A stretch of DNA of 64,000 nt, taken from the NCBI GenBank assembly GCA_905221615.1, contig CAJNDT010000332.1, positions 18,501 to 82,500 on the forward strand, written 5' to 3'. Shown one piece after another: positions 16,078 to 31,622 of the stretch. The notes below the pieces were generated by a model, which had not been told where the DNA came from, ran no database searches, and worked only from the letters and a program-made list of their open reading frames with translations. Positions within the stretch are counted from its first letter, which is position 1, and every line of letters starts with the position of its first letter. Source of the stretch: Symbiodinium sp. CCMP2592. Its lineage: Eukaryota > Sar > Dinophyceae > Suessiales > Symbiodiniaceae. The position numbers were made by a program, and so were the translations under genes.

Positions 16078-16110
<33 letters not shown>
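16078..16110. repeat. (TG)n microsatellite at retroelement left border
   Basis: About 15 TG units end exactly where the left 706-bp direct repeat begins. The right repeat also begins in a shorter TG run. The tract may be an insertion target or part of the element end. Confidence 0.85.
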
Positions 16111-16111
<1 letters not shown>

Positions 16112-16144
16112 CAACCCTGTATCCAAGGGCCTTCTCCTCACGCT

Positions 16145-16156
16145 CTGCAGCCATTT
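16145..16156 (+). promoter_or_regulatory. SL-like motif inside left repeat
   Basis: CTGCAGCCATTT, followed by CCTATTTACG, resembles the motif found before the internal ORFs with T in place of the second C. Its duplicate lies at 30962-30973. Confidence 0.4.
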
Positions 16157-16410
16157 CCTATTTACGATGTACATATAACTGAACTTGAGGGCAGATTACA
16201 CAGCAGGGGCTTCAGTGCAGATTACACAGCAGGGGCACCAGGGGTGTGTGGCTTGGCCTGGTGCAACGAAGCTCCAGTCACACACCAGGATATGGTCGGG
16301 GGACGCCTTGACCACGTACCTGCACTTTGCTTGTGACGCAGTACATGGACTTACGCTGTGTATTGGTTATTCTTCGTATTCCGTATTGCTGCTGTTAACG
16401 GGTATGGCCC

Positions 16411-16543
16411 GGGGCTAAGCCGAGAACCCCAACCAGTCGTTCTCCTGCAGCTATGGTATCACTTCAGAAACAGTCAGTGCTTGAGTTCATGTCGTCTGGT
16501 ATGTGCTGGTTTCTGGATGGCCTGGGGCTAAGCCGAGAACCCC
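16411..16543 (+). repeat. Duplicated GGGGCTAAGCCGAGAACCCC element
   Basis: The 20-nt string occurs at 16411-16430 and 16524-16543 (and in the right repeat at 31228-31247 and 31341-31360). Its ends GGGG and CCCC are complementary, and an inner GGC-TAA-GCC can pair, so it could be a small conserved RNA hairpin. Both copies follow TGGCC(C/T). Confidence 0.6.
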
Positions 16544-17113
16544 GTCTAGCGCGTACACTTTCAAGCATTGCTCAGTGCCAGTGTCCACCTCTTCAGTCCT
16601 TGCCGTGTCCTTCGGTGCGTTGGGGTTCAGGCTGGCGTTGTGGTTTAGTTAGGCAGGTTGAGGTGTGAGCCACAGACTTTCTGCACTTCATCTTTGCAGT
16701 TGCTGTCCATGAAGCTACCTGTCCGAAGTCTCTGATGTGTGGTCGCTTGAGACCTGGACATCAGGTGGTCCGTCGCATACCGAAACCTTCCTTAGCATTC
16801 AGTGTGTAGTCCTCCGGGACGGTGGTGTATGCCTCGGTGCTGCACTCAGATCCTCCAAGTTCGGAGGCGCCAAATTCAGTGTCAGCGCTCAGACCAGTTC
16901 AATGGAGAGAACAGTGAAGCCACATGGCCTACCCGCCTCTCATGGCACCCACAAATTCGGCTTCATGCCTACCAACACGCGATTGCAGCTCAAGCGGCTT
17001 CAAGCACTCATACCCAAGGAATCAGGCAGGATGCGTTTTGACCGTAATGTTCTAGCGACTTTTCCCTGTAGTAGTTGTTGTTGTAGGCTGTGCATTGCTT
17101 GTTTGCATTCGCC

Positions 17114-18409
17114 ATGCCTCCTCGTCCCCGTCCATCCTGTGCACCTGGACTCTGGCCGACCGCACCCTCTAGATCACGATCTCGGCGACGCCCGAGGTCT
17201 GCGTCTTCATCGTCCTCTACTTCTTCTTCCTCGTCAACGCCGGCGGCACCTACGACCCGGACTGCCGCACCTCAACGTTCCACGTTGACTGGCCGAATCG
17301 CTGCCCCGTTACAGCCTCCACGACCTATTGATATGGCAGCTCCGAGCACTCTCCCTGATCTTTCTCCTCTTCCTCCGAGCCCGTTTTGGCCTGGTTTACC
17401 TCCCGCTGGCTCCCCGCCGTCTTCCTCCAACAACGACCAGTCCGTGCCTGCTGCTTATGCCTCCGCCTCGCCGCCGGACCCGTCTTCTACCCCTACGGCA
17501 TCTTCGACTTCGCCACCTACAGCATCTTCGACTTCACCAGCTCCTTTCAGCTCTGCTTGCACGCTGGCCACCTTACGCCAGTGTTTGGCCGCGGCAGGCC
17601 AGCTTGATGCCTACCTGCAATCCGATTACTCTACCCGACTGGGCTCCCTCAAGGCGGTACACTGGGATCGAGTATATACTGCATTGCTGCAATACAGGTC
17701 CTACTTCAAAGCGCTCCCTCATCGTCGACAATGTCAACAGGAGTTGCTCTTGGACGGACGCAAATTTGACGTGCCTTTTACTTTAGCCGATCCGTTTCTT
17801 ACAGTGATGCATCTGCTGGTACATGCGGGATACCATCCTCACAGTGTTCAGTTCAAGTTCACACACGTCGAGGCTCCCCAACATCAACCAGACAAAGCTG
17901 GCCGACCCATGCTCATGGTGTCGCTCCCCTTCCCCGCAGCAGCTGTACGGGTTAGCGGGGCACCTGCAGTCGCCTATTTTGGCCATAACACGGACCTTCA
18001 GGCCGCCTTTGGCATCCTGAAAGAAGGATGCATTCGCCCCAGCAACTATGACCCCGTTGACACTTCTTGGCTGCCGAGTCCTGCCTTTTACTCTCGCGCT
18101 TCCGTCCACAGTCTCAGCGGAGCCCTACGGGCTGCAGCCAAGTTTGGGGGATGGGGTTCTCCCCGTCCGATTTGTGTATATGGCCGAATCCCTATTTGCT
18201 ATCTCGACATAGCCAATGCTGCGCCTACCGACACACCGTCTTCAGTGCTTCCCAACACTCCCGCGGCCTATCACCTGAAGAGCGACAGCGGAGGCACCGT
18301 CCCCGAAAACGCGGCGAACTACTTCGTCTCCATCCTCCACGGCAACGACAACCGTTGGGGTGTGCACTCCACGCTCGCGCAACCAGAAGGCATCGCCGTG
18401 TTCATGTGA
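17114..18409 (+). CDS. Retroelement ORF1: Pro/Ser-rich protein with possible ADP-ribosyltransferase-like C-terminus
   Basis: 431 aa if the start is the ATG at 17114 (an in-frame ATG at 17090 adds 8 residues). Residues 1-150 are low-complexity and rich in Pro, Ser, Thr and Arg, with RSRSRRRPRS near the start. Residues about 150-285 look globular. From about 285, YFGHNTDLQAAFGILKEG, then FYSRASVHS and ALRAAAKFGG, recall the spacing of ADP-ribosyltransferase folds (a His or equivalent at the start, a Tyr-containing middle strand, then a helix). I see this only by eye, and no catalytic Glu is certain, so it is a weak inference. It is the first ORF after the left repeat, 81 nt before the next SL-like motif. 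I find no clear SL-like motif before it. Confidence 0.6.
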   Translation: MPPRPRPSCAPGLWPTAPSRSRSRRRPRSASSSSSTSSSSSTPAAPTTRTAAPQRSTLTGRIAAPLQPPRPIDMAAPSTLPDLSPLPPSPFWPGLPPAGSPPSSSNNDQSVPAAYASASPPDPSSTPTASSTSPPTASSTSPAPFSSACTLATLRQCLAAAGQLDAYLQSDYSTRLGSLKAVHWDRVYTALLQYRSYFKALPHRRQCQQELLLDGRKFDVPFTLADPFLTVMHLLVHAGYHPHSVQFKFTHVEAPQHQPDKAGRPMLMVSLPFPAAAVRVSGAPAVAYFGHNTDLQAAFGILKEGCIRPSNYDPVDTSWLPSPAFYSRASVHSLSGALRAAAKFGGWGSPRPICVYGRIPICYLDIANAAPTDTPSSVLPNTPAAYHLKSDSGGTVPENAANYFVSILHGNDNRWGVHSTLAQPEGIAVFM

Positions 18410-18489
18410 GAGGACCCACAAAAGGTGTGCGTGATTTGCGTTATGGCATGGCTGGTCTCTTTGTTGCTGCCGCCTTATTCTTCTTCATC

Positions 18490-18503
18490 CCGCAGCCGTT
18501 TTG
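18490..18503 (+). promoter_or_regulatory. SL-like motif before ORF2
   Basis: CCGCAGCCGTTTTG, followed by CTGAACTAAG, lies 81 nt after the ORF1 stop and 44 nt before the ORF2 ATG. It matches the DinoSL core CCGTAGCCATTTTG at 12 of 14 positions. Confidence 0.55.
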
Positions 18504-18533
18504 CTGAACTAAGTGTGACCTTGCTAGCACATC

Positions 18534-19481
18534 ATGGCCTCCTCCGCCTTCACTCCTGAGTATTTGCAGTTGTTCTTGGTGTTTTTCGAGTCGTTGTCCG
18601 ACCACCAACTGCTCCAAGTACGTGATGTATTACTACGAGCCCATCAGAATCGATCGACGTTGACTCCTATGACACCGGTGGCTACGACAACTACTCCACC
18701 ACCTCCGGATGCTCCCCCACCTGCCACGGCGCTGCTCACCTCCAGTGACCCAGGCCCTTATTCCTCTTCTGGACCTCCAGTACTTCCAGACAGCAGTGGT
18801 AGAACAGCGGCGATGCCTACGACTCCCATGGGACCACCAGTACTTCCAGACAACAGTGGTAGAGCAGCTGTGATGCCTGCAACTCCCATGGGACCACCAC
18901 CGATTCCGTCTCATTTGGATCCTTCTCATTTGGATCCTTCCCAGCGCCAGACCCTACCACGGCTTCGCAGACGGGACCGCGACTATCCCCGAGATGAAGA
19001 CCGTTCTCGCCCTGCAGACCGCGATCGGGATCGTCATCGCCGGCGACGTCGTTCAGTATCGTCACCTCCTGCTGACCCACTACCTGCCGGCCCTTCTTCT
19101 CCTCCGATGCCATCTACTTCGGGGTATTCTGATGCCAACCAGATCGGCCACACAGCTCCACCCCCCGCCGTCTCCAAGCATTCTGGACGCGCTCTTGCAC
19201 CTAAGATCGATGCTGACGGTTCTGTCATTTACGTGCCGGTCAAAGCCCGACCACAAGTTCCACCTCCGCGGACCACAACGTCGACAACTGGCCGATCCCG
19301 CAGTCGGCGTCGCCGCCGCGATCGTGCTGACCGAGACCGTGACGATCGTGAGGATCCTGACCGCTCTCGAGGTGCGCGTGATGTCCCCCATCGCGATCGA
19401 GACCGCGATCGACACCGTCGGGATGTGAGCGGCGACCAGCAGCGGCCACCCTTGACTCTCTACTCCGTCGCTCGGGCCTGA
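18534..19481 (+). CDS. Retroelement ORF2: RD/RS-rich basic protein
   Basis: 315 aa. The N-terminus (about 1-40) is helical-looking with TPEYLQLFLVFFESLSDHQL and resembles the N-termini of several smaller ORFs here. Residues 45-130 are Pro/Ser/Thr-rich and include a 19-residue tandem repeat (GPPVLPDxSGRxAxMPxTPM twice, about 82-120). The rest is dominated by Arg-Asp, Arg-Arg and Arg-Ser runs (for example RSRSRRRRRDRADRDRDD). Such tracts bind RNA or mediate condensate or spliceosome contacts in known RS/RD proteins. A nucleic-acid-binding or Gag-like role is an inference. ORF3 follows after 103 nt. Confidence 0.65.
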   Translation: MASSAFTPEYLQLFLVFFESLSDHQLLQVRDVLLRAHQNRSTLTPMTPVATTTTPPPPDAPPPATALLTSSDPGPYSSSGPPVLPDSSGRTAAMPTTPMGPPVLPDNSGRAAVMPATPMGPPPIPSHLDPSHLDPSQRQTLPRLRRRDRDYPRDEDRSRPADRDRDRHRRRRRSVSSPPADPLPAGPSSPPMPSTSGYSDANQIGHTAPPPAVSKHSGRALAPKIDADGSVIYVPVKARPQVPPPRTTTSTTGRSRSRRRRRDRADRDRDDREDPDRSRGARDVPHRDRDRDRHRRDVSGDQQRPPLTLYSVARA

Positions 19482-19531: not shown

Positions 19532-19543
19532 CCGCAGCCATTT
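19532..19543 (+). promoter_or_regulatory. SL-like motif before ORF3
   Basis: CCGCAGCCATTT lies 51 nt after the ORF2 stop and 53 nt before the chosen ORF3 ATG. It differs from the DinoSL core at one position (C for T). Confidence 0.55.
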
Positions 19544-19584
19544 CCTACATCATTCCACAGTCTTGCGCTTCCCTGACACCACAC

Positions 19585-20196
19585 ATGTCTTTCCGACGCT
19601 CTGCTTCCTTTTCATCTTCTGCCTCTTCTTCCTGCTCGACATTGTCGTCATCCACTTCGGCAACTGTTCGGGAGTACTTGGACGTATTAACTGATCCTTT
19701 CATTCTCTTCCGGGTGTTCTTACTATTCTTGGAACTTCGTCTACGCACAGCTCTCGTCCCTCCGGACTCGATGATGGACACTGCCTCTGCCCGTCCACCT
19801 GCTCCGGACTCCACTTTGAGGTGCCTCTTTCCTATTGCTGAACTACATGGCCAGGCCCTTGCGTTCCGGACGGAACGCGACTATCACCTTCACTATGCCC
19901 TCGCCGAGATCACATTTCATCCCCGTGCCGTTGCTTCTTTGATGGTGACCTGCTCGCGAACATATTACGCAGTACGAGCCCTTCTTCGTGATCGTGGACT
20001 TCAATACGCCTTCTACGTGGAACGCACCCCCGATCTTCCACGCTCACATTCTTCTCGACCGCGCTTGTCCATTTTCCATCCGTTTTGTCCACAACAAGTC
20101 CGTGGCATGGCGTTACACCGTGGACTTCAACATTGGGTCTTCATTCCCTCCAGCTACCAGGAGTTACCTCTGATCCGGCTCGGACGTTTCTCATGA
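19585..20196 (+). CDS. Retroelement ORF3: small protein of the element's paralogous family
   Basis: 203 aa from the ATG at 19585. An in-frame upstream ATG at 19489 precedes the SL-like motif and is therefore not preferred. A Ser-rich start (FRRSASFSSSASSSCS) is followed by a hydrophobic helix, TDPFILFRVFLLFLELRL. Around residue 99, DYHLHYALAEITFHPRAVASL aligns loosely with the YHGLF region of ORF5 and ORF6, about the same distance after the N-terminal helix. No known domain is recognised. It is possibly a diverged copy of the family repeated in ORF5, 6, 8, 11 and 12. Confidence 0.6.
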   Translation: MSFRRSASFSSSASSSCSTLSSSTSATVREYLDVLTDPFILFRVFLLFLELRLRTALVPPDSMMDTASARPPAPDSTLRCLFPIAELHGQALAFRTERDYHLHYALAEITFHPRAVASLMVTCSRTYYAVRALLRDRGLQYAFYVERTPDLPRSHSSRPRLSIFHPFCPQQVRGMALHRGLQHWVFIPSSYQELPLIRLGRFS

Positions 20197-20263
20197 CGCG
20201 CACTCAGGATCTGGACAAAGAGGACTATTTGCTACCGCAGCAGTTCCTAAGCGAGCTCATTCC

Positions 20264-20287
20264 CCGCAGCCGTTTCTATTTTGGCTC
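20264..20287 (+). promoter_or_regulatory. SL-like motif before ORF4 (extended)
   Basis: CCGCAGCCGTTT is followed at once by CTATTTTGGCTC. The latter half restates the ATTTTGGCTC part of DinoSL. This gives an almost complete SL with a short insertion or a tandem of two partial SLs. The ORF4 ATG lies 69 nt downstream. Confidence 0.6.
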
Positions 20288-20332
20288 CTTTCGCCTGCTT
20301 CCTCACGCCTCCTCCCATTCTTCCTCCTCCTG

Positions 20333-21817
20333 ATGCCTCCACACCGTTCTCGCACTCCACCTTCCCGGCACCATCGTCTACATGGACGTGATGAACCTTC
20401 TCGACATGATCCCTATTCGTCCCAGCGGAACATGACGACGCAACCTCCCAGGTCCGGGTCCTTCCGGGACAATCGCGCATACAGCCGGACGTCTCCTCCG
20501 CGGTCCCGACGACATCGCAGCCGCACTCCGGTGTCCCACACGCCGGAACATCACCGCCACCGCAACCGTGGCCCTTCGATTGGACAACATCGACATCGAG
20601 ATCCTGACGCTGATTCTCCCCCACGACGCCGACTACACTATTCTTCACCACGGCCATCGTCTCGACGACATCCTCTTCCTTCCGCCTCTGATCGACGGGC
20701 ACCACACTCGGACAGCCGGGTGCACTTCACTCCTCCACCTCATGACGATCCATCCCACTATTCCTCCTCCGGTGCACCTCCAGCTCGACGTGAACCTCGC
20801 CGTGACCGTCGTGATCCTCCTTCCGCTCGGGATCATCGCCTACTTCAAGAACGCTACGAAGACATCTATTCGCTCGGCGCCAACTGGGAAACCACCGACC
20901 TCTTCCTTGATGCGAACCCAGACCGCGGTTTCCCTCTACCGCGCAATGTCGTAGACACTGCCTTTACCCGGCGTCTCGGCATCGCCGAAATGCCTATTCA
21001 TCTCGTCCCTATTGTGTCGCTTACCCCAAATGCTGGACAAGCATGGATCGTCCGCCTGCTGGCGGCTGGCCGCCCTCTGGTGATTGAAATTTTCAGGACG
21101 CGGCAGGAAGCGCTTTTGGCGTCATTCATTATTCGGACGCTCCGCAAATCCTCGGACCAATACGACATCTCTGATGTCCTTAAACAACTACATGACAATC
21201 ACACAGTCGCTACTGAAGGCCCACGCGACCTTACCGTATGGGCGTATCGCGCTCAGCTCTTGCAACACGTGGCAGACAAGGTTGCTGCGACGATTAATGA
21301 TCTACTACCCCACGGAGAAGGTGCAGCTGGAGGACGACCTGGACTTCTGGAACAAATTCAACGGTTGCAGCAGGACAACGACCAGCTCAGGATGCTTGCC
21401 GCTGGCACGGGCGCCGAGACCCTACCTCATCCACTTGCAGAACCGAACCCTCCACCAGATGCCGCCACCAGACTCCGGGACTCCTTTTCCAAGTTCGAAC
21501 GACTCGATCGCCGCGCTGTCCTTGCGTCCAACTCCCCCAAATCCGCTTCTACCACCGATGTGAAGAAATGGCTCGACGGTCTCATCAAGCTCCATCGCGA
21601 ATCCTACACACCGAAGCTCACCGAGTTGCAGGGCATCTTGAAAGAGGCCACCGCGGGCGTCTTGCCACCCTTGGACAAAACCCTTGTAGATTGGGGACTG
21701 ACCGTCAGTTTGGCTTCCAAGTTGTCTGAAGTTAACCAGCAAAAGCTCTTAGCGATGACGGCGGTCCTCTCCGCCTTCCAGCCAGCCGTGGTTCCTGCTA
21801 CTGCTCCCAGCACATGA
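20333..21817 (+). CDS. Retroelement ORF4: Arg/His/Ser-rich N-terminus with helical C-terminal region
   Basis: 494 aa. Residues 1-170 are a low-complexity basic region rich in Arg, His, Ser and Pro (RSRTPPSRHHRLHGRD and similar). Residues 180-320 look globular, with a repeated NAGQAWIVRLLAAGRPLVIEIF-like hydrophobic core. A coiled-coil-like segment, LLEQIQRLQQDNDQLRMLAAG, lies near 340-360. A charged helical tail follows to the end. The combination (basic RNA-binding-like arm, folded domain, coiled coil) would suit a Gag-like or ribonucleoprotein scaffold, but there is no zinc knuckle and I recognise no family. Confidence 0.65.
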   Translation: MPPHRSRTPPSRHHRLHGRDEPSRHDPYSSQRNMTTQPPRSGSFRDNRAYSRTSPPRSRRHRSRTPVSHTPEHHRHRNRGPSIGQHRHRDPDADSPPRRRLHYSSPRPSSRRHPLPSASDRRAPHSDSRVHFTPPPHDDPSHYSSSGAPPARREPRRDRRDPPSARDHRLLQERYEDIYSLGANWETTDLFLDANPDRGFPLPRNVVDTAFTRRLGIAEMPIHLVPIVSLTPNAGQAWIVRLLAAGRPLVIEIFRTRQEALLASFIIRTLRKSSDQYDISDVLKQLHDNHTVATEGPRDLTVWAYRAQLLQHVADKVAATINDLLPHGEGAAGGRPGLLEQIQRLQQDNDQLRMLAAGTGAETLPHPLAEPNPPPDAATRLRDSFSKFERLDRRAVLASNSPKSASTTDVKKWLDGLIKLHRESYTPKLTELQGILKEATAGVLPPLDKTLVDWGLTVSLASKLSEVNQQKLLAMTAVLSAFQPAVVPATAPST

Positions 21818-21951: not shown

Positions 21952-21963
21952 CCGCAGCCGTTT
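21952..21963 (+). promoter_or_regulatory. SL-like motif before ORF5
   Basis: CCGCAGCCGTTT, followed by CCTTAAGG, lies 135 nt after the ORF4 stop and 37 nt before the ORF5 ATG. Confidence 0.55.
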
Positions 21964-21988
21964 CCTTAAGGGTTTTGCTATTAATACC

Positions 21989-22591
21989 ATGCCGCTCCAG
22001 CTTTCCACACTTCCTTGCGGATTTTTGCATCAGCTCCTGGACTACCACCAGAACTTGTTCGCGTACGCCGTGGCCGCGACCCACCCTCCTATTGATAGCA
22101 GTCCAGGCAATTCTATTCGGCAGACCACGCGACATCCCGATGACATCATGATCCGTGACCGTCTTGCGGAGCTCATTGACCGTCACAATAACCTCTTCTA
22201 CGGGTTCTTCCGCGTTGGGGACAACTATTATCACGGCCTATTTGTTCTTACCTTCGACATCGGCGTCATTTCGGCACTTTCGGCTACCAACCGCCATCTG
22301 AATGATGCACTCGCCATCTACCTTCTCGCTCGCTCCATGACCACAGTCGCCCTCCTACCCGCGGATCGTTCTGAACCCCCTGATCTTCTTCGTCGGCGTC
22401 TTCCACTTGGGTCAGAGTTCTCCAGCATTGTGCGGTTCTCCTCTTTGACATACCGCCTGGGCATTCCCTCCTATTTGACTGAGTTCGATTGCACGGAGGT
22501 CCCCCGCAGTCGTCTATTCCGATTACGACTCCATGCCTTCGGCACCGCCTTGCAGAGCAGACATCTTCAGGACACCTCCTGGAGCGGATGA
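21989..22591 (+). CDS. Retroelement ORF5: paralogous family member (YHGLF type)
   Basis: 200 aa from the ATG at 21989. A longer frame from 21878 starts before the SL-like motif and is not preferred. Residues about 65-125 (RHNNLFYGFFRVGDNYYHGLF onward) align by eye with ORF6: DNYYHGLF versus DNSYHGLF, then NRHLND versus NRNMNY. A second matching block, LPLGSEFSSIVRFSSLTYRL, aligns with LPIGTTYADVVRFSDAVLTL of ORF6. The two are therefore diverged tandem duplicates. No catalytic motif or membrane segment is evident and the function is unknown. The conserved YHGLF core suggests a folded domain and not low-complexity sequence. Confidence 0.65.
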   Translation: MPLQLSTLPCGFLHQLLDYHQNLFAYAVAATHPPIDSSPGNSIRQTTRHPDDIMIRDRLAELIDRHNNLFYGFFRVGDNYYHGLFVLTFDIGVISALSATNRHLNDALAIYLLARSMTTVALLPADRSEPPDLLRRRLPLGSEFSSIVRFSSLTYRLGIPSYLTEFDCTEVPRSRLFRLRLHAFGTALQSRHLQDTSWSG

Positions 22592-22669: not shown

Positions 22670-22681
22670 CCGCAGCCGTTT
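22670..22681 (+). promoter_or_regulatory. SL-like motif before ORF6
   Basis: CCGCAGCCGTTT, followed by CAGCTAATTGGCTTA, lies 79 nt after the ORF5 stop and 53 nt before the ORF6 ATG. Confidence 0.55.
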
Positions 22682-22722
22682 CAGCTAATTGGCTTACCCT
22701 TCATCCACTTGCTCGTCACACC

Positions 22723-23487
22723 ATGGCGAACTTGGCACCGGAGGCACTGGTGGACCTTCCTACTACCTCTGAATACCGCGAATGGGTCGCAGCTGCTCGA
22801 GAATCTCGCAGAGATCGCACTACACCGACCTCCTCGACCAACTATGTCTCATTATCCTCTGGGGAGAACCCTACGATTCCCATCTTCACCGACGTCCCGG
22901 TCAATTTTTGGCTTTCTCCTTTCATTGTGATGAGAGGCTGGTTGGTTCCGTTCTCCTCGACCTCACCGCGACCGCACATCCACCAGATTATGCACGAGGT
23001 GATGACGGAGGCCTGTAACATGTACTATGAGGTCGTCCAGATCGCGGATAATTCTTACCATGGATTGTTCGAGATTATACTCGACTTGTATCTCACTACG
23101 CAGCTCCTCCGGGTTAACCGCAATATGAACTATGAAGTCATTCACTTCTTGCACGGGCGCAACATTACCCACTTCATTACTCGGGACGTTCATCAGCCTC
23201 GACCCGCTCAACTACTACCAGGTGAACCTACTCCCCGTATGCGCGGACCGTTTCTGCCTCCACGCATCCTACCCATTGGCACCACCTACGCTGACGTGGT
23301 CCGGTTTTCAGATGCGGTTCTGACATTGATGATCCCTCATGAAATTCACACCTGGGAGGCTCTTGAGTTGTTGCAAACACAGCTACGGTGTCTACGCGCC
23401 CGCTCCTACCTATTGCTTGGACAATGTCTTCATTACCACCGCCGCGTGTTCTTCACCGCAGCTTCCGCCAACGATGTGGATCCATGA
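22723..23487 (+). CDS. Retroelement ORF6: paralogous family member (YHGLF type)
   Basis: 254 aa from the ATG at 22723, the first ATG after the SL-like motif. The upstream in-frame extension to 22489 overlaps ORF5 and is rejected. Residues 95-160 contain CNMYYEVVQIADNSYHGLF and VNRNMNYEVIHFLHGRN. These match ORF5 in order and spacing, and the later IGTTYADVVRFSD block matches too. The N-terminal 60 residues are polar and probably flexible. No known domain. The tail FFTAASANDVDP is unique to this copy. Confidence 0.65.
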   Translation: MANLAPEALVDLPTTSEYREWVAAARESRRDRTTPTSSTNYVSLSSGENPTIPIFTDVPVNFWLSPFIVMRGWLVPFSSTSPRPHIHQIMHEVMTEACNMYYEVVQIADNSYHGLFEIILDLYLTTQLLRVNRNMNYEVIHFLHGRNITHFITRDVHQPRPAQLLPGEPTPRMRGPFLPPRILPIGTTYADVVRFSDAVLTLMIPHEIHTWEALELLQTQLRCLRARSYLLLGQCLHYHRRVFFTAASANDVDP

Positions 23488-23602: not shown

Positions 23603-23615
23603 CCGCAGCCGTTTT
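23603..23615 (+). promoter_or_regulatory. SL-like motif before ORF7
   Basis: CCGCAGCCGTTTT, followed by CCCATTGGGTTA, lies 116 nt after the ORF6 stop and 60 nt before the ORF7 ATG. Confidence 0.55.
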
Positions 23616-23662
23616 CCCATTGGGTTATAACACGGCCGCGTCCCTTTTTCACGCCGACCTCT

Positions 23663-24073
23663 ATGAAACGATCAGCCGCTGTCGCAGGACTACCTACTCC
23701 ACCTAACCTAATACGTCTGCGTGTTCTGATTCCAGCCTGGTTCCTTTGCTGTGACCTACCCGATGACGGTGGACATGCAGAGTGGTTCGACTTTCATGTG
23801 TGGAGCGACATGCTCATTGATCATGTGAAACAACGACTCTCGCAACTGCTTCATCAACGCCATGGTCGGTACTTGCACCCATCACACTTTCAGTTACTCC
23901 AGGGCGACCGGCACCTCTCCTACATGAGGAGCACCACTGCGATTGCCACCGTCAAGGACGCTGAAATCCTCCGAGAAGAACCCGCTTGTGGCAGTCTACT
24001 TGAAGCCCGCCGAACGACCTGGCAACCGGCCATTGAACTACCTCCTGGTACCACACCGACTTGGAGACCTTGA
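23663..24073 (+). CDS. Retroelement ORF7: possible ubiquitin-like (beta-grasp) protein
   Basis: 136 aa from the ATG at 23663. From about residue 15, LIRLRVLIPAWF, WFDFHVWSDMLIDHVKQRLSQLL, FQLLQGDRHLSYMRSTTAIATVKDAEIL follow the order of a ubiquitin fold. That order is strand one, strand two, then a helix with DxxxxxVKxxL spacing, a strand resembling the xxLIFAGKxL segment of ubiquitin, and a closing TVKDAEIL like the TLSDYNI turn. No C-terminal Gly-Gly is present at that place, so a conjugation role is not supported. A protein-interaction role is an inference. It is the smallest ORF of the element and shows no similarity to the YHGLF family. Confidence 0.55.
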   Translation: MKRSAAVAGLPTPPNLIRLRVLIPAWFLCCDLPDDGGHAEWFDFHVWSDMLIDHVKQRLSQLLHQRHGRYLHPSHFQLLQGDRHLSYMRSTTAIATVKDAEILREEPACGSLLEARRTTWQPAIELPPGTTPTWRP

Positions 24074-24133: not shown

Positions 24134-24145
24134 CCGCAGCCGTTT
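24134..24145 (+). promoter_or_regulatory. SL-like motif before ORF8
   Basis: CCGCAGCCGTTT lies 61 nt after the ORF7 stop and 23 nt before the ORF8 ATG, the shortest leader in the array. Confidence 0.55.
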
Positions 24146-24156
24146 CGATCATCATT

Positions 24157-24651
24157 ATGAGTGTTCCCTTCCCCATTGCCTCGCTCGCACAAATCACCTC
24201 GTACCTGCAGTACATCGATGTGATCTTGGAGTTACACGACGATGCTGACGACTCCCCAGAATCGCATGACAACTTGCCTTTGTGGGTGACCAGGTCGTGC
24301 GCTCTGATTACCAACTCCATGCGAAGGGCCCGGCTTCAATGCGGCACACCGAGATTGATTCGACACGGATACCATGAAGCAGTCTTTCGCGTCTCCCTAC
24401 AACATGTGAGTTTATTCATTTGTCAGACAACAGCAGCTGTTTGTTCGGAATGGTGCCACGTTCTACGTGATTGTCTCGATGCCACTGAACATTTGCAATT
24501 ACACCTCACCCGCATCCCACAAGCTGCTCTACGACAAGGTGCTCCTTGCAAACTCTTCTACTGGGACGACGAGGAAGGCGTGGAAACATCTATTTCGATA
24601 CTACGAGCTGCCCTACCAGTTCGTCGCGTACGTTTTCAGCCTCTTTCTTGA
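24157..24651 (+). CDS. Retroelement ORF8: paralogous family member
   Basis: 164 aa from the ATG at 24157. An in-frame ATG at 24061 lies upstream of the SL-like motif and overlaps the end of ORF7. An N-terminal helix, SLAQITSYLQYIDVILELHDD, is followed near residue 70 by GYHEAVFRVSLQHVSLFICQ, which matches the position of YYHGLF in ORF5, then EWCHVLRDCLDATEHLQL, similar in spacing to the following helix. It appears to be a shortened member of the ORF5/ORF6 family. It is Cys-richer than its relatives (six Cys). No known function. Confidence 0.55.
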   Translation: MSVPFPIASLAQITSYLQYIDVILELHDDADDSPESHDNLPLWVTRSCALITNSMRRARLQCGTPRLIRHGYHEAVFRVSLQHVSLFICQTTAAVCSEWCHVLRDCLDATEHLQLHLTRIPQAALRQGAPCKLFYWDDEEGVETSISILRAALPVRRVRFQPLS

Positions 24652-24732: not shown

Positions 24733-24742
24733 CCGCAGCCGT
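24733..24742 (+). promoter_or_regulatory. SL-like motif before the RT ORF
   Basis: CCGCAGCCGT, followed by ATATATTCGGG, lies 82 nt after the ORF8 stop and 28 nt before the ATG of the reverse transcriptase ORF. Confidence 0.5.
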
Positions 24743-24760
24743 ATATATTCGGGACGCTTC

Positions 24761-27700
24761 ATGCCCCCTCCCCCACCTACGCCCATGGTCCATGAACGGC
24801 GTCGGTCTCGCACTCCACGTCGACACCATTCTGTACGTGCTGAATGCCCTCCTCATGCACGAGTACGAGGCAACAGACAGGCTCAGACCAGACAAGCTCG
24901 ACTCATTGATTTTCTACATCAGGGCCCACTTCACCCACTGTATCGCCGTTTTGCCAATGGCCAGTCGGTGTACCCGCTTTCTTTCGATTCCACCGATGCT
25001 TTACTACTCGTCAACGAGGTCATTCGTCAATTGACAGAAGGTTCTTCATTGTCACCAGCACAATTTTCTGCACTACGAGATGATGACGTTGCCCACCACC
25101 TACGACATGAACTCTTCCCTTCTTCATCATCCTCTACCTCTTCAACATCCCGGCCAGTCATGGGTTTTAATCATCTGAGGAGATCACAGACATCTGACAG
25201 TCTACTACTCCGAGCAACCCCGACTTCATCTTTGCGGCGCTCTATGACCAGGACATCCACAACTCCGTCTACATCTTCAACCTTATGGATTCCACCACCC
25301 CCTCTCGATGCCATGTTCTCTCACCGTCCAGATCCCACACACAGGCCGTCTCCACCTCGGGTACATTATACCTGTCCTTCCTCATGTGACAGGTCCCAGC
25401 CACCTCGGACTCCCACATCTTCCTCTACAGGTCTAACTTCCTCGACCAGGACGTCCCTTACCACACCAACCGGCTGGGCTAAAGACTCGGACCTCAAGAT
25501 TGACGGATTGACATCGGCACTACGACCAACTTTGCCTTCGATCTCCGACTCGCGCATCAATGAGTGGTTGGTCAGCAGATACGCACTGACACGCGTTCAG
25601 GTTGCTCACACCTTACAAACCTCCGCTCTCCGACTCCTCTTCTGCCTGGAGATCTTCAGCTTTGACCACCTTTTCGCAGAAGATTTGGGAGACGACGAGG
25701 ACGACGTTCCACAATTATCTCCGCGAACCCCAGCACGTCACCGCCTACCACCTCATCTACACCGACTTCTTACATCCTTCCTAGACTTTTACATTGCGGC
25801 ATTGCCGATTATACGACAAGTTCTTCCACATCATGTCTTTGGACGTCTCTCTTGGGTACGTGCTCTGTGGTTCCTACAACTTCATCGTCTACGGTTCGCC
25901 ACTACTACCAACCATCGCGGTCTCCAGGATCTATTCTTCAATTTGGACGTACAGCCGTACACTCTGCGACATCATTTACAGTCCAGCGTCGTCTACATCA
26001 AAGTCTCCCACAAACACCCCGGATGGTACATCGGCTCCACCATCCACACGATCATTGACCGGGAAGTTAGCCGCCGCTCCAAATACAATCAACTTTGTTC
26101 TGGCACTCAAGCGTTCTTCGAGCCTGCCTTACGCATTTGGCACGCTGCCGGTACCTACGACCATCACCTACCTATTACTTTACAGCACCGACCTACTGAA
26201 GAACAAGTCCGCGCCTTGGAACAATCTCTAATTGCCACATATCATCCACACTTGAATGCCCCCTTCGTCTACACGTTCCTACGGAAACTGGGAGTACAGC
26301 TGGAAGCACCCATGGTCACCACCTTCTTGGAGGGTGGCAACGGTGCTCGTCTCCTACGTGCTCATCATCGCTACACACACTACCGGGATCTACCGGAACT
26401 CCTTGGCACTCGCTCCCTCATCGAACAACGGGAGACCCTGGCCACAATTATACAATATGTCGGCAGCAATGGCGTCCTCAAGTTTTTCTCACAACGAGTT
26501 CTACGTCGGAATGGCACTCCGATAGCCTACCTGTACTTACTCGTACGCTTCCTTGTCTTCGTGGATGAGCCACATCAAACACGTGCCCTACAAGCTTTAC
26601 GCTTAGCCCTTCGCTACAAAGGAGGAGAGATCCCACCTCGTCATCGATTACTTCCTCTTCCTCAATTGGCTCATGACTTTTTACGACAAGCTCAACATTG
26701 GTTGGACAGCTACATACTTCATCACCGAGAATGGTTCCCACCTTACCATCTACCACGATACACCATCACCGAGAAGAAGGCCCCTACGCTTGGTCAAACC
26801 TTATTCAATCACCACGCATGGCTACGATTGTGGGACCCAGAGAAACCCTTCTTGTGCTGTTGTCGACAACTACCAGGACAACGCACACCCTCGGACCACG
26901 TCGCAGCCCCAGCCGATGTCGTTCTGAACGAATCCATCTTTCGGGAAAACATGAGCGACGGCCGATGGTTGACCAAATCCCAATTTCGCAGGTGTACAGT
27001 GGCCCCTTTGAACCGATGGTTCAAGTTGTGGCGACAACCCGACCAATCCTTACTTCGCTGGCAAGTCTTTGTTTCACACCAATGGCAACTCCACAGCCAC
27101 ACTCTACGGATGCGTCCTGACGGCAGACAGTTACGCGAACTCAAGAATTTACGGGAAAGCTCGGAGCACATCGTGATCTCCCCTATTGATCATGGACCGC
27201 ACTTGGCTTATGCATTTTGTCCTCGACAATACTTCGACATCTTGACCAAGACTTTCTTGGATCCTGCAGTCTTCTGGCGACGAGACACCAACCCGATGCA
27301 GCTATCGGAACACATACAACGAGCTATAAAACGACATGTTCCCCCACGTTATCACTGGGCCCTGGCACCCAAAGCAGCTTTGCCGTATGCCTACGTGCTC
27401 CCCAAGCCCTCCAAACAATTCCTGAAGGGGCGCCCGATTGTCAGCTATTCCAACACGTGGTGTGCCACGCTCGCGAAATTTCTTTCTACCGCGGTCCTAC
27501 AGATGCTACAGACTGTTGTTCCACCTCAGTTCGTGTCTCCTACCGTCCACTCCATCATCCAGACGTTCATCCATGCCTTCCGCAACAACCCGGTCACCGT
27601 GGAACTTCAGCTACTTCAACAAGATCTTTCTGGTTTCTTCACTTCGGTTCCACATGATCGCATTTACCACTCGATCTCGTCGTTGACAGACATGTTCGCT

Positions 27701-28585
27701 CGCCACCAACAGATTCCTTTGGACTCCGACATACAGATCACGATGCGGGACCGCAATTCACTTGGTCGCCTATTTCGAGGCCGATATCGAAAAGCCGGTT
27801 CACATTACAAACCTCTATGCCTTCGCGACTTACCTTCATTGGTTATGTTCTTGCTACGACACTCCTTTTTCACAGTTGGCACGGAGATTTTGGTACAACA
27901 TCGCGGGGCCTCTATGGGCTCACCCATGGCCCCCTCAATGTGCGGAGCGACTGCAGCCCTGTGGGAAGCCACATTCCACCAACTCATCCGCGACCAGATG
28001 CTGACCTCTCGTTATTTCTGTTCTTCACGCTATGTGGACAATCGGTGCCTCCTTCGGATTTGGGACGGGGAGCTGGAATCCCTGGACGATCACCAACGGC
28101 ACCACTCCCACCGAGGCCACGATCCTTTTTCGTCATCCTCTACGTCCCCGTATGGTTGGTTCCAAGAAGTATATTTACATCCACATTTCTATGGCCTTCC
28201 ATTGGAATTGGAACATGTTCCGGGACAAGAACTACTGGGCACCGTCGTGGACACCGCACAACGTACCATTCGACTCGTCCTTCCACGGAACAGTATTTCA
28301 TTGCGCTCCCCGTGCTCAGTCTCTTCGACACGCAGGAACACTCAGGGACTGACCACACGGATTTATCTCATTTGCCGATTATCCTGGCCCAAAGCCGTCA
28401 TTGCTCCTCAAGTTCGTGAACTTGTTCATCTATATCGTGAACGAGGTTTCTCTGAACGCTCACTGGAAGACGCCTCCCGGTCCGTACTCCGTCGTTTTGG
28501 ACTACGTTGGCGACAGGTCAGTGAACCCCCGGAAAACTTGCTCGCATGCGTGTATCGAACTGGCACCCTTCAGTCCGTTTGTTGA
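24761..28585 (+). CDS. GIY-YIG endonuclease-reverse transcriptase (Penelope-like)
   Basis: 1274 aa from the ATG at 24761. An upstream in-frame extension to 24467 crosses the SL-like motif and is not preferred. Residues 1-330 are basic and then Ser/Thr/Pro-rich. A GIY-YIG nuclease domain follows at about 410-500: VVYIKVS at 410-416, GWYIGST at 421-427, and LEQSLIATYHPHLN carrying the expected Glu and Asn. A CCC...H cluster near 700 may bind zinc. The reverse transcriptase spans about 860-1190: KGRPIVSYSNTW, motif A QQDLSGFF with Asp955, motif B GASMGSPMAPS at 1049-1059, and motif C YVDN with Asp1093 and Asn1094, where YxDD is usual. Family knowledge: such enzymes nick DNA and copy RNA at the nick. 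The N-terminal nuclease order matches permuted Penelope-like elements. Activity with Asn at the second motif C position is uncertain. Confidence 0.85.
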   Translation: MPPPPPTPMVHERRRSRTPRRHHSVRAECPPHARVRGNRQAQTRQARLIDFLHQGPLHPLYRRFANGQSVYPLSFDSTDALLLVNEVIRQLTEGSSLSPAQFSALRDDDVAHHLRHELFPSSSSSTSSTSRPVMGFNHLRRSQTSDSLLLRATPTSSLRRSMTRTSTTPSTSSTLWIPPPPLDAMFSHRPDPTHRPSPPRVHYTCPSSCDRSQPPRTPTSSSTGLTSSTRTSLTTPTGWAKDSDLKIDGLTSALRPTLPSISDSRINEWLVSRYALTRVQVAHTLQTSALRLLFCLEIFSFDHLFAEDLGDDEDDVPQLSPRTPARHRLPPHLHRLLTSFLDFYIAALPIIRQVLPHHVFGRLSWVRALWFLQLHRLRFATTTNHRGLQDLFFNLDVQPYTLRHHLQSSVVYIKVSHKHPGWYIGSTIHTIIDREVSRRSKYNQLCSGTQAFFEPALRIWHAAGTYDHHLPITLQHRPTEEQVRALEQSLIATYHPHLNAPFVYTFLRKLGVQLEAPMVTTFLEGGNGARLLRAHHRYTHYRDLPELLGTRSLIEQRETLATIIQYVGSNGVLKFFSQRVLRRNGTPIAYLYLLVRFLVFVDEPHQTRALQALRLALRYKGGEIPPRHRLLPLPQLAHDFLRQAQHWLDSYILHHREWFPPYHLPRYTITEKKAPTLGQTLFNHHAWLRLWDPEKPFLCCCRQLPGQRTPSDHVAAPADVVLNESIFRENMSDGRWLTKSQFRRCTVAPLNRWFKLWRQPDQSLLRWQVFVSHQWQLHSHTLRMRPDGRQLRELKNLRESSEHIVISPIDHGPHLAYAFCPRQYFDILTKTFLDPAVFWRRDTNPMQLSEHIQRAIKRHVPPRYHWALAPKAALPYAYVLPKPSKQFLKGRPIVSYSNTWCATLAKFLSTAVLQMLQTVVPPQFVSPTVHSIIQTFIHAFRNNPVTVELQLLQQDLSGFFTSVPHDRIYHSISSLTDMFARHQQIPLDSDIQITMRDRNSLGRLFRGRYRKAGSHYKPLCLRDLPSLVMFLLRHSFFTVGTEILVQHRGASMGSPMAPSMCGATAALWEATFHQLIRDQMLTSRYFCSSRYVDNRCLLRIWDGELESLDDHQRHHSHRGHDPFSSSSTSPYGWFQEVYLHPHFYGLPLELEHVPGQELLGTVVDTAQRTIRLVLPRNSISLRSPCSVSSTRRNTQGLTTRIYLICRLSWPKAVIAPQVRELVHLYRERGFSERSLEDASRSVLRRFGLRWRQVSEPPENLLACVYRTGTLQSVC

Positions 28586-28590
28586 TTTAT

Positions 28591-28611
28591 TCGCAGGCAT
28601 TTTAGGTCAAG
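28591..28611 (+). promoter_or_regulatory. Near-complete DinoSL-like sequence before ORF10
   Basis: TCGCAGGCATTTT plus AGGTCAAG matches the 21-nt DinoSL core (CCGTAGCCATTTT, GGCTCAAG) at 16 of 21 positions without gaps. It starts 6 nt after the RT stop and 42 nt before the next ATG. This is the best full-length resemblance in the array. Confidence 0.65.
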
Positions 28612-28632
28612 TTACCACCAGAGCCCTTCATC

Positions 28633-29487
28633 ATGGCCGGTTCTTCACCCGATTCCTATCTCTTGGACGACGTCACCTGGACACCAGACCCGGACATGGA
28701 CTCAGACCTGGACGCCTCCTCCGCCCATGATGCTGGTCTACCTCCCGCCGGTTCAGATGTTGATGGGGACCACACACCTCATCCCACCCTTCCTCTTTCT
28801 CCCTCTCCTCTCCCCAGAATACCCGCCAGAAAACGCCGTCGACGACACCGCCACCACACTACCTCCTCTTCTTCCACATCATCCCGACCTTCCAAGGCCA
28901 CGTCAACATCATCTTCGACATCTTCATCGTCTTCATCCTCTTCTTTGTGCCCCACTGCGGAGCTACGAACACGGGACCCACCTATTTCCTCGTCCCGTTC
29001 GAAGACACGCTCACGGAAGACACCTTCCGGGACCAGCACTACCACTCCAGCGACAGGAGCTACACCAGCCCAGACCAATTCTCCCTCAGCGACTTTACAC
29101 GCTCCCCCTCGTGTCCGAATTCCTCCCCGAGGAAATGGTTATACATTACATCGAGTACGCCGCAGCAAGTCGGGCACTACACATTCCACCGTATCATTCC
29201 ATGGAGATGCCGCAGAACGTCGCCGACAACAGTGGCTCCGACAATGGCGCCAATGCACTCCTGCCTCCCCGTACTATCAGGACGTGCAGAACTGCATCAG
29301 ACATCGCGCCCGCATTATGTTGGACATCATAGCACATGAACGAGGAGGACCCACTGCGGCTTCGGACAATTCACGGATACGACGCCGCTATCACCTACCA
29401 GAAGACCAACTCATCCCTCTGGCACTCATCTACCGGGATTGCGCTGCTCGCCGACGACGGTCCGTCCGTGAAGTTCTGAGTACCTGA
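28633..29487 (+). CDS. Retroelement ORF10: acidic-then-basic Ser-rich protein
   Basis: 284 aa. The first 40 residues are acidic (TWTPDPDMDSDLDASSAHD). Residues 60-190 are low-complexity Ser/Thr/Arg, with SSSTSSRPSKATSTSSSTSS and RKRRRRHRHH. The C-terminal about 90 residues look folded: RRQQWLRQWRQCTPASPYYQ, IRHRARIMLDIIAHERGG, LPEDQLIPLALIYRD, RRRRSVREVL. No known family. It is the first ORF downstream of the RT. The composition suggests nucleic-acid binding; that is an inference. Confidence 0.6.
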   Translation: MAGSSPDSYLLDDVTWTPDPDMDSDLDASSAHDAGLPPAGSDVDGDHTPHPTLPLSPSPLPRIPARKRRRRHRHHTTSSSSTSSRPSKATSTSSSTSSSSSSSSLCPTAELRTRDPPISSSRSKTRSRKTPSGTSTTTPATGATPAQTNSPSATLHAPPRVRIPPRGNGYTLHRVRRSKSGTTHSTVSFHGDAAERRRQQWLRQWRQCTPASPYYQDVQNCIRHRARIMLDIIAHERGGPTAASDNSRIRRRYHLPEDQLIPLALIYRDCAARRRRSVREVLST

Positions 29488-29546
29488 TCCTACCGAGATC
29501 CTGCTCTGGAAAACATGCCCGATAACTCCGTTTCGTCGTCCCATAC

Positions 29547-29558
29547 CCGCAGCCTTTT
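29547..29558 (+). promoter_or_regulatory. SL-like motif before ORF11
   Basis: CCGCAGCCTTTT, followed by CACCGCAGCTTTTC, lies 60 nt after the ORF10 stop and 63 nt before the ORF11 ATG. The second partial CCGCAGCTTTT makes it look like a tandem pair. Confidence 0.5.
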
Positions 29559-29609
29559 CACCGCAGCTTTTCTGTACAAACACAGTTGGCTTCCCTTCCT
29601 CACCAACGA

Positions 29610-30188
29610 ATGGCTTCCTTCATTGACGTCCTCCCCTTGCTCCTCTCCTATTTCGAGATGCAGACTGTGATACAATTGGATCCCCGTCATTGCCAACGTC
29701 CACACACTGACGACCGCCACACCACTCGTTCCGCCTTCTCCATTTTGACCGCACATCACGGCGATTGTTCCTGGCACCAATATGGCGTTTGGCAACAGTT
29801 CCTCGCCGCCCTTCAAGATCACAAGATGAGCGCCCACAACTTCTTTGGCTTCCACCACGACAACACGGTGTTCACGATCTATCACTATCAGCCCTCGGTC
29901 ATTGTATACTGCAATCAATTGTGTTGGCGGGCCCACGTCCACCTACGTTCCGCATCACGACTTTGCCTACGTGTCCGTATTCGAGACCCTACCCTAGCAC
30001 AGTGGCGACCTACTTCGTCTGGACCCTGGATTACCACATGCTGGTGTTCAGCGCATTGCCTTTCCTTTTCCAAATGGACACCTACGATTTCTCGCCGCCA
30101 TTCACCTCCCCCACCCATCGCCACGGACAATCCTTATTGGCAGCAAGAACAACAACGACATGGTCTTCTTCCTGCTCTGAGACGGTGA
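29610..30188 (+). CDS. Retroelement ORF11: paralogous family member (distant)
   Basis: 192 aa from the ATG at 29610 (in-frame ATG at 29586 also possible). An N-terminal hydrophobic helix, FIDVLPLLLSYFEMQTVIQL, resembles the starts of ORF2, ORF3 and ORF8. Near residue 55, HQYGVWQQFLAALQDH aligns with YQYSMF of ORF12. The last 50 residues are Trp, Ser and Pro-rich and less convincing. A second frame, 29765-30247, is open across the 3' half, so a frameshift near 29,950 cannot be excluded: in that frame FVWTLDYHMLVFSALPFLF looks more natural. Confidence 0.5.
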   Translation: MASFIDVLPLLLSYFEMQTVIQLDPRHCQRPHTDDRHTTRSAFSILTAHHGDCSWHQYGVWQQFLAALQDHKMSAHNFFGFHHDNTVFTIYHYQPSVIVYCNQLCWRAHVHLRSASRLCLRVRIRDPTLAQWRPTSSGPWITTCWCSAHCLSFSKWTPTISRRHSPPPPIATDNPYWQQEQQRHGLLPALRR

Positions 30189-30266
30189 AGCTTTGGAAGA
30201 CACAGACGGCGATTTTTGAGACAAAGACCTTCACTTGCACATCATGACCCTGGTCATTTTGCTCTA

Positions 30267-30278
30267 CCGCAGCCCTTT
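30267..30278 (+). promoter_or_regulatory. SL-like motif before ORF12
   Basis: CCGCAGCCCTTT, followed by CAGCAATATTTGG, lies 79 nt after the ORF11 stop and 71 nt before the ORF12 ATG. Confidence 0.5.
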
Positions 30279-30337
30279 CAGCAATATTTGGTTAGTCCTC
30301 CGCCTCTCCTTTCCTTCCTTTCGTCGCCCGTACACTC

Positions 30338-30928
30338 ATGGCCCCGCACCTATCCGACATTCCCTTGGAATGGTGGCTTGATTACCTGGTGGAGCTCCGA
30401 GTATGGCAAGTTCGTCCGATGACCTCCCCCGATCTCCGGATCCCTAGCACCCTCCTTGACCCGCGCTTTGTGATATCGCAACACCGATTCACCACATCTC
30501 AGAACCGCTACTACCTCGACACCCTCCACGGACTTTGTCAACTCAATCCTTCTTTCCAGCGACTGGATTACTATGACCCGGACATTTGCGGTTACCAGTA
30601 CAGCATGTTCACAACTGCACCATCTCCGAGTGCACTTCACGCACTACTTCTCGCCGACCGTCGACTACATTGCAACATGAGTCAACTGATACTGCGCCAT
30701 CGCTGGCAACTTTGTCTTGGTTTACTTGCACCTAGAGTCTATGCTCGTCATGTTGATCGACGTCACTTTCAAAGACACGAATTGCCAACTCCTCTTCGAG
30801 AAGTTCTACATCGACTTGCCTTGCACCGCTGCCAGATCCTGCAAGTTCACCCGATGGCTCTACCTGCCCTACATGCTCACCGTCTTCGTCTGATTACTTC
30901 ACCCCGCTACGGCGGGGTGTGTGTGTGA
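30338..30928 (+). CDS. Retroelement ORF12: paralogous family member at right border
   Basis: 196 aa. IPLEWWLDYLVELRVW forms an N-terminal helix. YQYSMFTTAPSPSALHALL near residue 85 and ADRRLHCNMSQLILRHRWQL follow in the order seen in ORF5 (YYHGLF, then ATNRHLNDALAIYLLARS). The last codons run through the GC hairpin and into the TG tract of the right repeat, where the stop (TGA, 30926-30928) lies. The true C-terminus may therefore have been replaced at the repeat junction. Unknown function. Confidence 0.6.
   Translation: MAPHLSDIPLEWWLDYLVELRVWQVRPMTSPDLRIPSTLLDPRFVISQHRFTTSQNRYYLDTLHGLCQLNPSFQRLDYYDPDICGYQYSMFTTAPSPSALHALLLADRRLHCNMSQLILRHRWQLCLGLLAPRVYARHVDRRHFQRHELPTPLREVLHRLALHRCQILQVHPMALPALHAHRLRLITSPRYGGVCV
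30900..30919 (+). terminator. GC hairpin with TACG loop at the right repeat border
   Basis: CACCCCGC and GCGGGGTG form a perfect 8-bp stem around TACG. In RNA this is C(UACG)G, a member of the very stable UNCG tetraloops. It abuts the start of the right 706-bp repeat and has no partner at the left repeat. It could mark the 3' end or an RT recognition structure of the element RNA; that is an inference. Confidence 0.5.
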
Positions 30929-31622
30929 CAACCCTGTATCCAAGGGCCTTCTCCTCACGCTCTGCAGCCATTTCCTATTTACGATGTACATATAACTGAA
31001 CTTGAGGGCAGATTACACAGCAGGGGCTTCAGTGCAGATTACACAGCAGGGGCACCAGGGGTGTGTGGCTTGGCCTGGTGCAACGAAGCTCCAGTCACAC
31101 ACCAGGATATGGTCGGGGGACGCCTTGACCACGTACCTGCACTTTGCTTGTGACGCAGTACATGGACTTACGCTGTGTATTGGTTATTCTTCGTATTCCG
31201 TATTGCTGCTGTTAACGGGTATGGCCCGGGGCTAAGCCGAGAACCCCAACCAGTCGTTCTCCTGCAGCTATGGTATCACTTCAGAAACAGTCAGTGCTTG
31301 AGTTCATGTCGTCTGGTATGTGCTGGTTTCTGGATGGCCTGGGGCTAAGCCGAGAACCCCGTCTAGCGCGTACACTTTCAAGCATTGCTCAGTGCCAGTG
31401 TCCACCTCTTCAGTCCTTGCCGTGTCCTTCGGTGCGTTGGGGTTCAGGCTGGCGTTGTGGTTTAGTTAGGCAGGTTGAGGTGTGAGCCACAGACTTTCTG
31501 CACTTCATCTTTGCAGTTGCTGTCCATGAAGCTACCTGTCCGAAGTCTCTGATGTGTGGTCGCTTGAGACCTGGACATCAGGTGGTCCGTCGCATACCGA
31601 AACCTTCCTTAGCATTCAGTGT
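30917..31622 (+). repeat. Right 706-bp direct repeat (pseudo-LTR-like)
   Basis: Second copy of 16100-16805, with every internal landmark at a constant offset of 14,817 nt, including the SL-like CTGCAGCCATTT at 30962. It diverges from the left copy after CATTCAGTGT. Confidence 0.9.
30962..30973 (+). promoter_or_regulatory. SL-like motif inside right repeat
   Basis: CTGCAGCCATTT, identical to the copy at 16145. No ORF of the array follows it. Confidence 0.4.

Follow-up and report, generated by a model that had tools for sequence, protein, structure and literature searches.

A multi-gene Penelope-like retroelement in a Symbiodinium genome, with a spliced-leader-like motif before 11 of its 12 open reading frames

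The window analysed here is a stretch of 64,000 nucleotides (nt) from the coral-symbiont dinoflagellate Symbiodinium sp. CCMP2592 (contig CAJNDT010000332.1, positions 18,501 to 82,500, assembly GCA_905221615.1; 1.098 Gb in 5383 contigs), and all coordinates are positions within it. It contains a retroelement with a leader-like motif before most of its genes. Alignment of two 706-bp direct repeats (16100–16805 and 30917–31622, both +), identical at 706 of 706 positions, gives the element a length of 14,817 bp from repeat start to repeat start and an interior of 14,111 bp. Between the repeats lie 12 open reading frames (ORFs) on the + strand, together covering 88% of the interior. The repeats are regarded as pseudo-long terminal repeats (pseudo-LTRs), defined as direct repeats produced by (partial) tandem insertion (PMC8969392). 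The 5′ junction is marked by a (GT)n microsatellite (16079–16110, no strand assigned), which runs on into the (GT)5 that opens the upstream repeat, and the element starts inside this tract. The stop codon of ORF12 falls within the first 12 bases of the downstream repeat. The pseudo-LTR also contains a 27-nt repeat, ATGGCCYGGGGCTAAGCCGAGAACCCC, present twice (16404–16430 and 16517–16543, 96% alike), and a 26-nt repeat at 16184 and 16210 (92% alike). No hammerhead ribozyme was matched by Rfam in 16050–17150 at expectation values (E) up to 5, nor in the whole window at the gathering score.

ORF9 (24761–28585, +, 1274 amino acids (aa)) encodes a GIY-YIG endonuclease domain (about 25982–26260), a CxC..H motif (26855–26899) and a telomerase-like reverse transcriptase (RT; about 27137–28270), in that order and all on the + strand. 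Residues Y423, G425, R434 and N499 are kept in all 28 aligned family members with a GIY-YIG domain, and E487 in 27 of the 28; we take these five to be the catalytic GIY-YIG residues. The Pfam GIY-YIG profile itself matches only one of the 31 family members (best E 0.061). The cysteines of the linker, C699 and C701, are each present in 30 of 31 rows, and motif C of the RT active site reads RYVDNR (28028–28045, +) in place of YxDD, without variation in the 31 aligned members. The RT shares ancestry with telomerase RT, the GIY-YIG domain lies inside the RT ORF and the repeats are direct pseudo-LTRs, all of which characterize Penelope-like elements (PLEs). Canonical endonuclease-positive (EN+) PLEs carry the GIY-YIG domain C-terminally, behind the RT, and a hammerhead ribozyme in the pseudo-LTR, whereas here the GIY-YIG domain stands before the RT and the Rfam searches above matched no such ribozyme. 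The components of an LTR retrotransposon were not found: none of the 12 ORFs gave a Pfam match to gag, protease, RNase H or integrase at E up to 1 or 10. We classify the element as a multi-gene PLE whose endonuclease is N-terminal. Both the 706-bp repeats enclosing 12 same-strand ORFs and the Penelope-like RT with a GIY-YIG domain had been recognized in the original prediction, made by a model from the letters alone, and are borne out by the identity of the repeats and by the domain order and conserved residues of ORF9.

The remaining ORFs, all on the + strand, gave no Pfam match above chance level. Upstream of ORF9 lie ORF1 (17114–18409, 431 aa, with a serine/arginine-rich N-terminus), ORF2 (18534–19481, 315 aa, arginine/serine (RS)-rich), ORF3 (19585–20196, 203 aa), ORF4 (20333–21817, 494 aa, with an RS-rich N-terminus and a domain common to the distant relative P0011), ORF5 (21989–22591, 200 aa), ORF6 (22723–23487, 254 aa), ORF7 (23663–24073, 136 aa) and ORF8 (24157–24651, 164 aa). 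ORF10 (28633–29487, 284 aa, basic and serine-rich), ORF11 (29610–30188, 192 aa) and ORF12 (30338–30928, 196 aa) follow it. ORF5 and ORF6 are paralogues (hhalign probability 96.6%, E 5.5e-10). Low-complexity stretches rich in arginine and serine, similar to those of SR proteins, occupy 17114–19481, 20333–20800 and 28633–29200 (ORF1, ORF2, ORF4 and ORF10). By a guess from composition alone, these ORFs may encode RNA-binding partners. A 60-nt tandem repeat inside ORF2 (18771–18890, 88% identical) preserves the reading frame. The longest off-frame ATG-initiated ORFs of the same interior reach 201 aa, so length alone lends no support to ORFs 5, 7, 8, 11 and 12 and barely any to ORF3. Of the three sense frames, leave-one-out codon usage favoured the true one, with small margins, in 11 of the 12 ORFs, the exception being ORF5.

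Eleven of the 12 ORFs are preceded by a common motif. Its consensus over the 11 sites is CCGCAG/CC (the slash marks the proposed point of leader addition), followed by G or A in 9 of 11, TTT (T in 11, 10 and 11 of 11) and C or T in 10 of 11. The exact form, CCGCAGCC, occurs 10 times in the window against 1.78 expected, a count reached by none of 100 shuffles. All 10 sites are on the + strand and precede ORFs of the element (ORFs 2–9, 11 and 12). Exact search and a weight matrix together place them at 18490–18503 (before ORF2), 19532–19545 (ORF3), 20264–20290 (ORF4, where the motif is followed by ATTTTGGCTC), 21952–21965 (ORF5), 22670–22683 (ORF6), 23603–23616 (ORF7), 24134–24147 (ORF8), 24733–24746 (ORF9), 29547–29560 (ORF11) and 30267–30280 (ORF12). 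The eleventh site, before ORF10 (28591–28611, +), has the variant TCGCAGGC. The 11 sites served to build a 14-nt weight matrix, and in a scan of the whole window with it they ranked 1–10 and 13. Ranks 11 and 12 were taken by motif copies inside the two repeats, which the original prediction had not listed: a weaker form, CTGCAGCCATTTCC, at 16145–16158 (+), 45 nt into the upstream repeat, and its second copy at 30962.

The placement of the motif is regular. All 11 motifs lie downstream of the preceding stop codon, by 5–134 nt, and their AG ends 17–65 nt before the ATG. In 11 of 11 cases the first ATG 3′ of the motif opens the ORF (136–1274 aa). In a control over interior positions, 2877 of 13,494 (21%) had a first ATG within 75 nt that opened at least 130 aa; among 2000 sets of 11 interior positions drawn at random, the top score was 8 of 11. 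The original prediction had reported the 11 sites and their position after the stop correctly; the motif is longer than it had stated, and its distance of 23–71 nt to the ATG counts from the motif start.

The dinoflagellate spliced leader is given as DCCGUAGCCAUUUUGGCUCAAG in PMC6050394. The motif equals leader positions 1–12 except for a change of T to C, which makes the CAG, and a variable ninth base. No place in the window is closer to the leader than site 28591, where 16 of 21 positions agree. At 20264, ATTTTGGCTC is an exact 10-nt stretch of the leader, and the 21-mer starting 6 nt into the site scores 15/21, joint second in the window. In a gapped test, in which the tail of the leader was aligned to the 34 nt following each of the 11 motifs, the score was 123 against 98.7 (standard deviation 6.4) for shuffles; 1 of 3000 shuffles and 6 of 3000 permuted queries did as well. 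The 25 nt 5′ of the CAG are pyrimidine-rich over the 11 sites. Together, the weight matrix and the comparisons with the leader uphold the likeness to a spliced leader that had been proposed from the letters alone.

Tandem motif-like repeats accompany two of the sites: CCGCAGCAGTTCC lies 29 nt before the ORF4 motif (20235–20277), and CCGCAGCTTTTC lies directly 3′ of the ORF11 motif (29547–29575). Tandem leader relicts have been reported for cases of repeated retroposition (PMC6050394).

Further copies of the element are present in the genome. With about 7990 best candidates scored in each of the RT and ORF1 searches, at least five gene models of Symbiodinium sp. CCMP2592, on contigs that have five different lengths, were found to carry them: P0001 and P0002 for the RT, and P0003–P0005 for ORF1. 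None of the five is identical to the copy in the window. In-frame identity is 93–97% for the RT, and 82–99% for ORF1 in the longest in-frame stretches. In P0001, ORF5, ORF6, ORF8, ORF9 and ORF10 follow one another as they do in the window, ORF7 being represented among them by a short piece read out of frame, and P0004 strings together ORF1 and ORF2; hence the ORF series is not private to this locus, as far as partial copies show. The ORF1 copies P0003–P0005 are named B'ETA in public records, apparently a mis-transferred name.

Coding constraint was assessed from amino-acid differences in out-of-frame stretches of the gene models, each difference being ascribed to the one base change able to explain it, and that change to its codon position in the true ORF. 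Left out of the count were 35 differences that no single change could explain, together with matches that fell below 45% identity or lay on the minus strand, and the expectation was taken from the codons of the window with transitions weighted twice. Changes at true codon positions 1, 2 and 3 numbered 24.5, 20.5 and 129, against 47.0, 48.4 and 78.6 expected (nominal p 1.5e-13, the changes not being independent). The third position received 24.5 of 33 changes in ORF1 (15.1 expected), 13.5 of 15 in ORF2 (7.2), 8 of 9 in ORF8 (4.2), 50.5 of 64 in ORF9 (28.6) and 31.5 of 51 in ORF10 (22.5). By this analysis of gene-model sequences, protein-level constraint acts on ORFs 1, 2, 8, 9 and 10. ORF7 received two changes, one of them at position 3, too few for the test. 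ORF5 and ORF6 are represented solely by in-frame stretches, with identities of 97% over 171 residues and 92% over 145, and the five gene models cover none of ORFs 3, 4, 11 and 12. Two checks suggested in the original prediction thus succeeded in part: a portion of the ORF series stands on another contig (P0001) with no full copy among the five gene models, and constraint among copies emerged as a third-position excess in the five ORFs named, the other ORFs falling outside this result.

A more distant relative, P0011, on a contig of 1,018,356 bases, starts with a homologue of ORF4 (38% identity over 98 residues, E 1e-17), and a second, weaker piece of it matches the ORF4 C-terminus. Its RT, downstream of this homologue, has 35% identity to that of ORF9. 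Judged from this one gene model, ORF4 has therefore long been kept beside this RT. The gene models of relatives yielded no further ORFs of the element, a weak test because most of these models contain only the RT.

The motifs are probably leader-derived trans-splice acceptors, one per gene. In the proposed mechanism, a transcript would start in, or upstream of, the pseudo-LTR, and the host would add its spliced leader at CCGCAG/CC of each motif, yielding a separate mRNA for each ORF. The motif would descend from a retroposed leader (CCGTAGCCATTTTGGCTCAAG), whose own AG would serve as the leader acceptor. Unspliced full-length RNA would be reverse transcribed by the ORF9 protein after GIY-YIG cleavage, here at the (GT)n tract. 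Since each repeat holds a motif copy, ORF1 could be served by the upstream one by way of a long leader, and the downstream one could have a part in ending the last mRNA. Polycistronic transcription is a step separate from the leader acceptors and is put forward as a proposal. Taken as a whole, the reading is of a dinoflagellate retroelement lineage with an operon-like set of a dozen genes, each with its own host-leader-derived trans-splice acceptor, in which one RNA gives rise to many leader-bearing mRNAs, and which would have grown by capturing leader-tagged mRNAs or by spreading one relict before every gene. We assign it a probability of roughly 45%.

Several observations count against the proposed mechanism. 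ORF1 has no motif directly upstream, the nearest being the repeat copy 969 nt away. On the motif matrix, the rank-13 site at 28591 is about level with unrelated places at 7438 (−) and 4124 (+). The leader core at 20264 is shifted by 6 nt relative to the motif register, and an unrelated place at 3630 also scores 15/21 against the leader. When the first 5 nt are left off, the gapped test weakens, with 25 of 3000 shuffles and 69 of 3000 permuted queries doing as well. Over the 8 nt that would complete the leader, similarity in fixed register fell short of significance (p 0.13 for the sum, 0.04 for the best site), as did depletion of AG upstream of the motif (p 0.11). Support from constraint within the genome is limited to 5 of the 12 ORFs, with ORFs 3, 4, 7, 11 and 12 outside it. 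Finally, the title of Beauchemin 2012, as cited in PMC11453091, states that transcripts of dinoflagellate tandem arrays are not polycistronic.

The same title would suit a different role of the motif, that of an internal promoter or initiator from which each gene is transcribed alone; leader addition could still occur, and the element would not be polycistronic. The near-constant TTT (T in 11, 10 and 11 of the 11 sites) agrees with this, and the TTT(G) of retroposed leader relicts has been proposed as a promoter (PMC6050394). The pyrimidine-rich upstream region and the invariant CAG, however, fit a 3′ splice site, and the 17–65 nt between motif and ATG leave little space for a start site, although the latter is a weak inference; we consider a promoter role rather unlikely. 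An acceptor signal looks alike in cis- and trans-splicing, so the motif CAGs might also be joined, in retroviral style, to one donor in the 5′ leader or the upstream ORFs, with no spliced leader involved. In the gene models P0001, P0002 and P0004, segments of consecutive ORFs are indeed connected, presumably across introns. These models repeatedly leave the conserved frame, however: pooled identity by ORF is 65–93% out of frame against 91–97% in frame, so the joined models have the look of wrong predictions, yet one long stretch of the close copy P0004 keeps 93% identity out of frame. On its exon side, moreover, the motif resembles the leader, which cis acceptors need not do, and cis-splicing appears improbable.

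Two further explanations concern the ORFs themselves. Unrelated DNA can be mobilized in trans between Penelope pseudo-LTRs, as described for a rotifer host gene (PMC3846280), and the ORFs might be host genes, unrelated to the RT, captured between two pseudo-LTRs. The RT itself, however, lies inside the repeats, part of the same series is found on another contig, ORF4 also stands beside the RT in P0011, whose RT is 35% identical, and the other ORFs lack Pfam matches above chance level, which makes capture still harder to sustain. A chance or compositional pattern of a C+T-rich strand could account for long frames, as the off-frame interior ORFs of up to 201 aa illustrate. The excess of exact motifs (10 found and 1.78 expected, with none of 100 shuffles reaching 10), the first-ATG rule in 11 of 11 cases and the third-position excess leave this explanation with very little plausibility.

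Among known systems, the N-terminal GIY-YIG PLEs Naiad and Chlamys, reportedly described by Craig et al. in 2021, are the ones whose ORF layout resembles that of ORF9. Their traits are a GIY-YIG domain before the RT, a CxC joining them and an insertion bias for microsatellites. The GIY-YIG domain upstream of the RT, the CxC linker, the pseudo-LTRs and the lack of a detected hammerhead ribozyme are shared; as to microsatellites, the single insertion considered here (n = 1) abuts the (GT)n tract. The differences are one ORF in Naiad/Chlamys against 12 ORFs here, the leader-like motif before ORFs and the dinoflagellate host; YVDN as RT motif C in all 31 aligned members of the present family may be another.

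Giant multi-ORF PLEs have been published as Terminons, Athena elements of bdelloid rotifers of up to 40 kb (PMC6431247, PMC5408684); the claim that PLEs normally have one or two ORFs and that such an element had not been described was therefore too strong. Terminons share the PLE-type RT, the many accessory ORFs and the large size. They have an endonuclease-deficient Athena-type RT with GIY-YIG-like enzymes as accessories, whereas here the GIY-YIG domain is part of the RT ORF, ORF9; they are also telomere-attached and carry hammerhead ribozymes. Pfam matched none of the enzymes named for Terminons (DEDDy, GDSL, Rep) in the 12 ORFs, a comparison that did not extend to coiled coils or membrane segments, and the leader-like motif before 11 ORFs is a further difference.

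The addition or carriage of a leader by other genetic elements is described for three systems. The transcript of Cer1, a Gypsy/Ty3 element of Caenorhabditis elegans, receives the host spliced leader, yet Cer1 is an LTR element with one SL1 site and one spliced mRNA (PMC3315495), whereas here a PLE has an acceptor-like motif for each gene. Spliced-leader-tagged (DinoSL-tagged) dinoflagellate retrogenes have a leader relict upstream of the coding sequence (PMC6050394, PMC12014239), but they are single host genes, whereas here a whole series sits in a single mobile element and has the same modified relict throughout, with CAG for TAG. Retrogene transcripts carry the relict CCATTTTGGCTCAAG (PMC12014239), in which we read the AG of CCGTAG as the acceptor used; the cited text itself discusses TG as a non-canonical acceptor. 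The Symbiodiniaceae RNA virus dinoRNAV is likewise a parasite with a 5′ DinoSL in its assembled genome, and its authors mention molecular mimicry; it is an RNA virus with the leader at the 5′ end and not before each gene of a retroelement (PMC10235124). In the open-licence literature, no precedent was found for a multi-ORF leader-spliced PLE in a dinoflagellate or for many leader acceptors in one PLE.

Since a eukaryotic mRNA is as a rule translated into a single protein, the gene number of retroelements seldom exceeds a few. If the operon-like reading is true, the element would show how this limit on gene number can be lifted by leader trans-splicing. It would also offer a natural test of polycistronic RNA processing in dinoflagellates. 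Leader relicts, which are generally seen as remnants of past retroposition, would be linked to a function in the present. Also of interest is the YVDN sequence that the family keeps without variation at its RT active site.

The window holds another element at 42846–63216. It is AT-rich, 20.4 kb long and bounded by near-perfect inverted repeats of 375 nt and 92 nt at its ends. Some of its ORFs, without a Pfam match above the cut-off, are taken as capsid proteins. It further encodes an SF1 helicase (Viral_helicase1, E 1.5e-5), an A32-like ATPase (E 1.1e-9) and a free-standing GIY-YIG protein (E 8.3e-7), and looks like an integrated polinton-like virus.

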